Shown here one piece after another: positions 52,909-55,533 of a stretch of DNA of 64,000 nt. The position numbers and the translations under genes are program-made. Origin of the DNA: an uncultured Hyphomicrobiales bacterium (GTDB lineage: Bacteria > Pseudomonadota > Alphaproteobacteria > Rhizobiales > Beijerinckiaceae); assembly GCA_903861645.1 (NCBI GenBank), contig CAIOVE010000032.1:27201-91200 (forward strand), in the 5' to 3' direction. The notes under the pieces were generated by a model that made no database searches, was not told the origin of the DNA, and saw only the letters and a program-made list of their open reading frames with translations. The number at the start of each line of letters is the position of its first letter. Position 1 is the stretch's first letter.

Positions 52909-53214
52909 CTATTCAACCACGGACCACTCGATCCTCGCGAGATCACGAGAGCCATCGACGATGCGCACGATCTGCACGCCGTCGTCGATCAACCGATAAA
53001 GCGCCAGCCATCGTTCCATGACGAGCATCCTCGCATCCGGCGCGATGTCTGGGCGGGCGGGGCCAAGTTGTCGATGATCCCGCAAAAGACCGCAGACTTC
53101 CTCGACGCGGTCGTACACGCGGTCAGCAACCGTCGTGGAATTTCGTTGGGCGACATAAAGCCAAATATCGAGCAAATCCTCGCGAGCGTGGCGAGAAAAA
53201 TGGACCTTGGCCAC
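52909..53214 (-). CDS. parE: ParE/RelE-superfamily toxin
   Basis: 101 residues starting at a GTG at 53214. Fold signature is AREDLLDIWLYVAQRN then RLGPARPDI-like turn and the C-terminal strands RWLALYRLIDDGVQIVRIVDGSRD. Of the two subfamilies, the sequence resembles ParE (gyrase poison) more than ribosome-cutting RelE, because the RelE basic catalytic cluster is not obvious. It follows parD by four bases and is AT-richer than the operons beside it, consistent with a mobile toxin-antitoxin module. Confidence 0.88.
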   Translation of the reverse strand: MAKVHFSRHAREDLLDIWLYVAQRNSTTVADRVYDRVEEVCGLLRDHRQLGPARPDIAPDARMLVMERWLALYRLIDDGVQIVRIVDGSRDLARIEWSVVE

Positions 53215-53218
53215 GACT

Positions 53219-53479
53219 TCAAGCTTTCGACTTGGCCAGTCGCGCGCGCGCTTCCTGTTTCAGGGCCTTGAAATCCACTTCGCCAGCGTCGCCGCTGTCG
53301 ACGCCGGCTTGCCAAGCCTTGCGCAGGAATTGCAACTTCTCGGCTTCCTGCTGTTCCATCTTTTCCATCAAGCGCAGCGCCTCGCGGACGACCTCGCTTG
53401 ATGAAGTGTAGCGACCTGTCGTGACCTTGGCCTTGACGAAATTCGCGAGTTCGTCGGTCAGGGATACATTCATATTCAT
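53219..53479 (-). CDS. parD: ParD-like antitoxin
   Basis: 86 residues from the ATG at 53479, which has GGAGG eight bases upstream; the track ORF adds sixteen residues. The ribbon-helix-helix start MNMNVSLTDELANFVKAKV and SSSEVVREALRLMEKME are typical; the acidic-basic C-terminal half should wrap the toxin. It is co-transcribed with parE and is expected to repress its own promoter through the palindrome just upstream. Confidence 0.9.
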   Translation of the reverse strand: MNMNVSLTDELANFVKAKVTTGRYTSSSEVVREALRLMEKMEQQEAEKLQFLRKAWQAGVDSGDAGEVDFKALKQEARARLAKSKA

Positions 53480-53502
53480 GGCGGCGCCTCCACCGATCAA
53501 TA

Positions 53503-53538
53503 TGACGTCAATGCCTGATTTTGGCAATTTTAGGCATT
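53503..53538 (-). promoter_or_regulatory. parDE operator/promoter candidate
   Basis: AATGCCT and AGGCATT form a seven-base inverted repeat (53510-53516, 53532-53538), and the palindrome TGACGTCA (53503-53510) abuts it. On the minus strand TTGCCA and CATATT 17 bases apart could be the promoter within the repeats, so ParD binding would block it. Confidence 0.5.
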
Positions 53539-53619: not shown

Positions 53620-55197
<1,578 letters not shown>

Positions 55198-55229
55198 GAT
55201 TTCGTTCCTGACTGGGCGGCCCGCGGGTT

Positions 55230-55302
55230 CAGGGGCCGGGGAATGTTCGGCTGGCTTCCAGACCCCTGAGCGCCCAGGCAAAGCCCGGCCGGCCCTCAGG
55301 GG
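55230..55302 (-). promoter_or_regulatory. leuA attenuator: mutually exclusive leader hairpins
   Basis: On the minus strand, segment A (CCCCTGAG, containing the leader stop codon) pairs with segment B (CTCAGGGG), while B's CAGGGG can instead pair with segment C (CCCCTG) 28 bases on. A:B and B:C exclude each other. A ribosome on the leader's Leu run would cover A and free B for C. Neither hairpin ends in a T-tract, so control may be by Rho or ribosome access and not intrinsic termination. Confidence 0.55.
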
Positions 55303-55409
55303 CGACTAAGAAGAAGCAGCAGTCCGGCGAGCGTCGAGGCGCGGCCGCGCGCGCGCGGAACCAAGCGGTCCGCGTCGTCGGCGATCGGCGATGTGGCGAA
55401 ATGGGCCAC
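55296..55409 (-). CDS. leuA leader peptide (too short for the ORF track)
   Basis: A 37-codon frame starting at GTG 55409, five bases after GAGG, and ending at TGA inside hairpin segment A. Codons 30-34 are CTG CTG CTT CTT CTT, five leucines in a row, just before the stop. The position, the ribosome site and the run are the standard design of a leucine-responsive leader; shorter internal starts are possible. It has no other function. Confidence 0.75.
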   Translation of the reverse strand: MAHFATSPIADDADRLVPRARGRASTLAGLLLLLSRP

Positions 55410-55533
55410 GGCAACCTCGTTGAGCCCGAAAATTCAGGCGATACGGCTATATACGGGACGGGCGTGGGGATTGGCAAGGGCTGGGCGCTGCCCCAGGGGC
55501 GCATTTGCCAAGCATTTGATGTCATTCGCCCGG

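Follow-up and report, generated by a model that had tools for sequence, protein, structure and literature searches.

How is leuA, the gene for 2-isopropylmalate synthase, controlled in an uncultured Hyphomicrobiales bacterium of the Beijerinckiaceae? The question is raised by a window of 64,000 nucleotides (contig CAIOVE010000032.1 of assembly GCA_903861645.1, positions 27,201 to 91,200). Here leuA is read from the reverse strand and its ATG, at 55197, lies 98 nt 3' of the stop codon of a small open reading frame (ORF) rich in leucine codons. As judged by comparison with related sequences, selection maintains the translation of this leader, its leucine-rich tail is conserved, and the conserved device attached to it is a single hairpin which holds the leader's stop codon in its 5' arm. 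We lean towards considering the element a leucine-responsive leader-peptide attenuator of leuA.

The ORF itself is as the original prediction described it: 37 codons, a GTG start with a ribosome-binding site five bases upstream, a run of leucine codons (CTG CTG CTT CTT CTT) near the end and a stop codon within the first hairpin arm (coordinates in Table 1). The encoded peptide is VAHFATSPIADDADRLVPRARGRASTLAGLLLLLSRP, with the tail LLLLLSRP directly before the stop; the codons following the leucine run are AGT CGC CCC TGA (Ser-Arg-Pro-stop). Is it translated? Relatives of leuA were identified in 60 of 61 genomes; upstream DNA was collected for 55 of them and aligned for the genus. All 33 genus relatives have leader start and leucine run in one frame, at 11 different distances and with no internal stop, while chance would place only one third of the starts in frame. 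The leader ORFs of the genus are 32-45 aa long. Common to the genus alignment are a promoter-like block (CTTGc.a / TAt), the GAGG, a GTG or TTG start, the leucine run and the hairpin. The -35-like hexamer of the window leader, TTGCCA, stayed under the threshold in a strict sigma-70 scan. The start codon is embedded in a small inverted repeat, GTGGC...GCCAC (55393-55409, reverse strand), which is kept in most of the genus; the peptide start encoded across it reads MAxxAT. The repeat might affect translation of the leader.

At the level of the order, 53 of the 55 regions upstream of leuA contain a small ORF ending in CTT-A..-.GC-CCC-stop. One more, L046, has a CCTCTAAAT/ATTTAGAGG version farther upstream, so that 54 of 55 orthologues possess the element, with leucine run and hairpin both conserved; in the remaining region (L049, from an AT-rich genome) no such leader was seen. 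Because of this distribution and the invariably in-frame start, the ORF in the window cannot be attributed to chance. A covariance model built from 35 order-level sequences, the E-values of which are rough, matches 124 of 385 alphaproteobacterial genomes, and 66 of 80 genomes of a distant family, f52, carry the element. Nearly all matched genomes contain a single copy, and control of other genes via further copies was therefore rejected. Among 60 further class matches which were fetched (E 3e-8 to 0.02), the leuA motif DTTLRDG follows just 3' in 58. A pattern scan of 84,980 species genomes returned, among the matches listed, only alphaproteobacterial records or records named only Proteobacteria or Hyphomicrobiales; they include Bradyrhizobium, Methylorubrum, Microvirga, Bosea, Devosia, Kaistia, Xanthobacter and Fodinicurvata. 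Of 157 scan loci, 143 have leuA 3' according to one pattern and 9 more according to a looser one (152); four of the other five are interrupted by contig ends and one has no assignment.

In a phylum-wide sample, matches outside the Alphaproteobacteria occurred only at E of 0.02 or worse, and none was convincing. The model did not find the element in family f24 of the same order; in one genome of that family (G059) a close orthologue of leuA is missing as well, the best candidate reaching 33% identity. In the window no gathering-level match to Rfam 15 was obtained, the leader yielding chance-level matches only (E 3.9 or worse). The element appears to be a cis-acting RNA family of the Alphaproteobacteria, and it is located almost only before leuA.

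What exactly is conserved? The hairpin is CCCCUGAG:CUCAGGGG, with the stop codon inside the 5' arm and a near-invariant CUU-A upstream. The first base of the last leucine codon lies 8 nt upstream of the first paired base, and this geometry is fixed. The window leader is aligned by the covariance model at 71 bits. When 108 matches from across the class are aligned, 11 of 15 pairs have changes on both sides, 95% of the cells are paired, and the covariation score was reached by 0 of 500 shuffles and by no slid version; because this alignment was made to fit the model and 9 of its rows match, on the opposite strand, places already represented, the figure leans towards structure. A smaller MAFFT alignment (A1), which was not fitted to the model, agrees. 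The sequences are related to one another, so p values throughout are optimistic. The compensatory changes include the stop codon: where it is UAG or UAA, the 3' arm has changed with it. Further, CCCC:GGGG becomes CCUC:GAGG in some families, by which the last leader residue turns from proline into leucine; it is therefore the RNA helix that is constrained, not the peptide. The minimum free energy of the whole window leader is ordinary compared with shuffles (z -0.78), and the case is therefore carried by conservation and covariation, not by folding energy. The unpaired bases of an internal loop (GGCN opposite G/A; 55290-55270 in the window, reverse strand) are conserved as well and may constitute a protein-binding or tertiary motif. 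Several loci have TGG instead of the TGA stop in the arm (L070, L096, L175, L283, L288-L289, L296-L298, L304-L307); in family f52 such leaders have a new TGA two codons later (CCC TGG GCG TGA).

A second invariant is the last leucine codon. All 53 order-level leaders found with a pattern that did not require CTTA have CTT here, with A as the next base; among class matches CTTA occurs in 51 of 60 and CTAA in 5 of 60. A larger set of 190 leaders was selected in part by a pattern containing CTTA and so cannot serve as independent evidence here. CTT accounts for 2.7% of the leucine codons in leuA genes. Most order-level leaders have CTT or CTC as the preceding codon; in 37 of 60 sampled class matches and in family f52 it is CGA (Arg), resulting in Leu-Arg-Leu (loci L079, L218-L277 and L278-L307). 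One may imagine a single-codon sensor, in which the hairpin would slow the ribosome with the rare CUU in the A site, so that one codon, rather than a run, measures Leu-tRNA; the A after CUU and, in much of the class, the CGA before it would be the fixed context, and the stop in the arm would reset the switch. We consider this rather unlikely. A programmed +1 frameshift at CUU-A (CUU to UUA, as at known +1 sites) was rejected as a source of a fusion or bypass product: seen from the leader, leuA falls into each of the three reading frames (68/62/49), and in 34 of 179 leaders a stop interrupts the +1 frame within about 60 nt.

How might such a hairpin regulate leuA? Given sufficient Leu-tRNA, the ribosome would end at the UGA and depart, the hairpin would fold in a terminator-like manner, and fewer transcripts would reach leuA. 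With Leu-tRNA scarce, the ribosome would halt with the last CUU in the A site, its leading edge would lie over the CCCC, the hairpin would stay open and leuA would be expressed. Judging by the established ribosome footprint, a ribosome awaiting Leu-tRNA at this codon would cover the CCCC, and one that has finished would leave the hairpin free to close. A separate antiterminator would be unnecessary since the ribosome at the last leucine codon would block the hairpin directly. We take the hairpin to be terminator-like because U is enriched behind it and because full terminators occupy the same place in some lineages. The first 8 bases past the hairpin have a T fraction of 0.24 compared with 0.13-0.14 farther on (p about 1e-10 and 1e-4 in two sets), and in two genomes (G218 and G768, loci L275 and L308) a perfect 20-pair hairpin is followed by eight T, i.e., a full intrinsic terminator. 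For the window's own species we infer a terminator-like action of the hairpin.

Several observations weigh against leucine-responsive attenuation by this hairpin. Neither a U-tract nor an intrinsic terminator is present in the window, and most species are without a U-tract, at least five T among the 8 bases after the hairpin being found in only 7 of 56 class matches. The element is therefore no textbook attenuator. Leaders of the Leu-Arg-Leu clade have few leucine codons, and the two species with eight T likewise lack a leucine run. Finally, the invariant CUU-A and the conserved internal-loop bases are not accounted for by the hairpin alone.

The missing U-tract fits termination by Rho: the ribosome would leave at the UGA, the untranslated C-rich stretch would recruit Rho, and a stalled ribosome or an altered fold would prevent this. 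Indeed, the stretch between hairpin and leuA has C 0.33, G 0.27 and T 0.15, with C exceeding G in 135 of 174 leaders, and upstream control DNA differs (C 0.28, G 0.31). Yet the bias is modest and weak evidence, the stretch is short (mean 59 nt), and the conserved hairpin would be left unaccounted for, which makes Rho-dependent attenuation distinctly improbable.

The original prediction further held that a pair of alternative hairpins lies at the end of the leader. Such a pair is present in the window, where a second CCCCTGA can pair with the 3' arm; 2.4% of shuffles reach its duplex energy and 4% its pairing probability. However, this pairing is not conserved in the window's genus. In 174 leaders the complementarity of the 3' arm, the 5' arm or the leucine run to the downstream stretch is no higher than in shuffles, and a general alternative pairing was rejected on these grounds. 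Family f52 favours a short alternative hairpin (e.g., CUCAGG-GGAA-CCUGAG; p about 0.001). Thus, in f52, and in the window by chance or recent gain, a freed 3' arm could also pair downstream.

The second CCCCTGA of the window can also pair with the UCAGG of the leuA Shine-Dalgarno sequence (SD), and this leads to translational attenuation, according to which the SD would be paired unless a ribosome waits on the leucine codons, a stalled ribosome setting it free. The predicted accessibility of the SD rises from 0.37 to 0.57 with a ribosome at the last leucine codon. In several families the leucine run (CUCCUU) pairs with the SD (AAGGA) at P>0.9. Set against its null the effect is small and the sequences are related (a rise of 0.20 versus 0.157 with shuffled intergenic sequence, p=0.0014). 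Moreover, complementarity between leucine run and SD is no better than with synonymous leucine codons, and no conserved structure includes the SD in Bradyrhizobium, Devosia or the Methylobacterium group. We regard translational attenuation as rather doubtful.

Alternatively, a protein or ligand could bind to the hairpin, the leucine run being secondary, as was proposed for the actinobacterial LEU element. The internal-loop bases and the invariant CUU-A, which pairing does not account for, would find an explanation, as would the reduction of the leucine run to Leu-Arg-Leu in part of the class. But the hairpin is coupled to translation by the conserved frame and by the stop placed within its arm, and we judge a binding site of this kind very unlikely.

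We return to the leucine-responsive attenuator and its known counterparts. As in a leader-peptide attenuator, a short, translated, leucine-codon-rich ORF precedes leuA; an intrinsic terminator, i.e., a GC-rich hairpin with a U-tract, was not found before leuA in the window. Of the leucine attenuation originally predicted, the leader peptide controlling leuA is strongly supported, having withstood the check proposed with the prediction, in which a lack of conservation of leucine run or hairpin among leuA orthologues would have refuted it; the classical part finds no support as a design common to the relatives. The enterobacterial leuL attenuator (Rfam RF00512, Leu_leader) is alike in principle in that hairpin folding should depend on the ribosome. 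In contrast to RF00512, the present element has no Rfam match, its stop lies in the 5' arm, there is no conserved antiterminator and usually no U-tract. Caulobacter ilvL, an attenuator of ilv genes for branched-chain amino acids in which pausing blocks the terminator hairpin (PMC4117421), is a ribosome-controlled leader from the same bacterial class, but ilv attenuators of this type have other target genes and codons and a Rho-independent terminator.

The closest known kind is the actinobacterial LEU element, a leader with a leucine run before leuA and without terminator (Seliverstov et al., 2005, PMC1262725); it is described as a pseudoknot in which leucine codons and the SD of leuA form a base stem. 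Shared are the leucine-run leader before leuA, the lack of an obvious terminator and a similar tail (LLLLSC/SR). Here, however, the stop codon sits in a simple hairpin with covariation instead of a pseudoknot, in models restricted to nested helices. A LEU-type base stem between leucine run and SD was rejected (duplex energy -7.0 versus -6.55 for synonymous codons, p=0.40). The Streptomyces leader LeuL1 is MRFGLLLLSCRGEGL and is leaderless (PMC8079986), unlike the present leader, which has an SD. The LEU element was compared by its description, no convincing actinobacterial leuA being among the plasmid-collection records listed. In the literature searched, subscription papers excluded, no description of an alphaproteobacterial leuA leader was found.

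The features of the locus are compiled in Table 1. Directly 3' of leuA a ParD-type antitoxin (TIGR02606) is encoded at 53219-53527 on the same strand; the adjoining 101-aa ORF (52909-53214, reverse strand) is possibly its toxin partner.

Table 1. Positions of the leuA leader elements and of leuA in the window
Feature	Position	Strand	Remarks
-35-like hexamer TTGCCA	55472..55477	(-)	18-nt spacer to -10; block CTTGc.a ... TAt kept in genus alignment
-10-like hexamer TATATA	55448..55453	(-)	within the same genus-conserved block as the -35-like hexamer
Shine-Dalgarno GAGG of leader ORF	55415..55418	(-)	5 nt upstream of GTG; kept in genus
Leader peptide ORF	55296..55409	(-)	37 aa, GTG start, TGA stop; start in frame in relatives
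Five consecutive Leu codons, CTG CTG CTT CTT CTT	55308..55322	(-)	last CTT and next A almost invariant
5' arm CCCCTGAG of conserved hairpin, contains leader stop	55295..55302	(-)	covaries with 3' arm, including UGA/UAG/UAA changes
3' arm CTCAGGGG of conserved hairpin	55263..55270	(-)	covariation; covariance-model alignment
Second CCCCTGA, can pair with 3' arm (55270-55263)	55229..55235	(-)	window-specific alternative hairpin
Shine-Dalgarno CAGGA of leuA	55206..55210	(-)	sequence;.cagGa kept in genus
leuA, 2-isopropylmalate synthase	53620..55197	(-)	NCBIfam NF002087 865 bits, TIGR00973 693 bits, both above cut-off

What does the element mean for the Alphaproteobacteria? It appears to be a class-wide RNA regulator of the first committed step in leucine synthesis, apparently uncatalogued so far, with Bradyrhizobium, relatives of Methylobacterium, Devosia and Bosea among its carriers. 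Its leader ORFs are short enough to escape ORF annotation. The simple design, i.e., one hairpin with the stop codon inside it and neither a conserved antiterminator nor, mostly, a U-tract, bears on how attenuation may operate in GC-rich bacteria, the same question that is raised by the actinobacterial LEU element.
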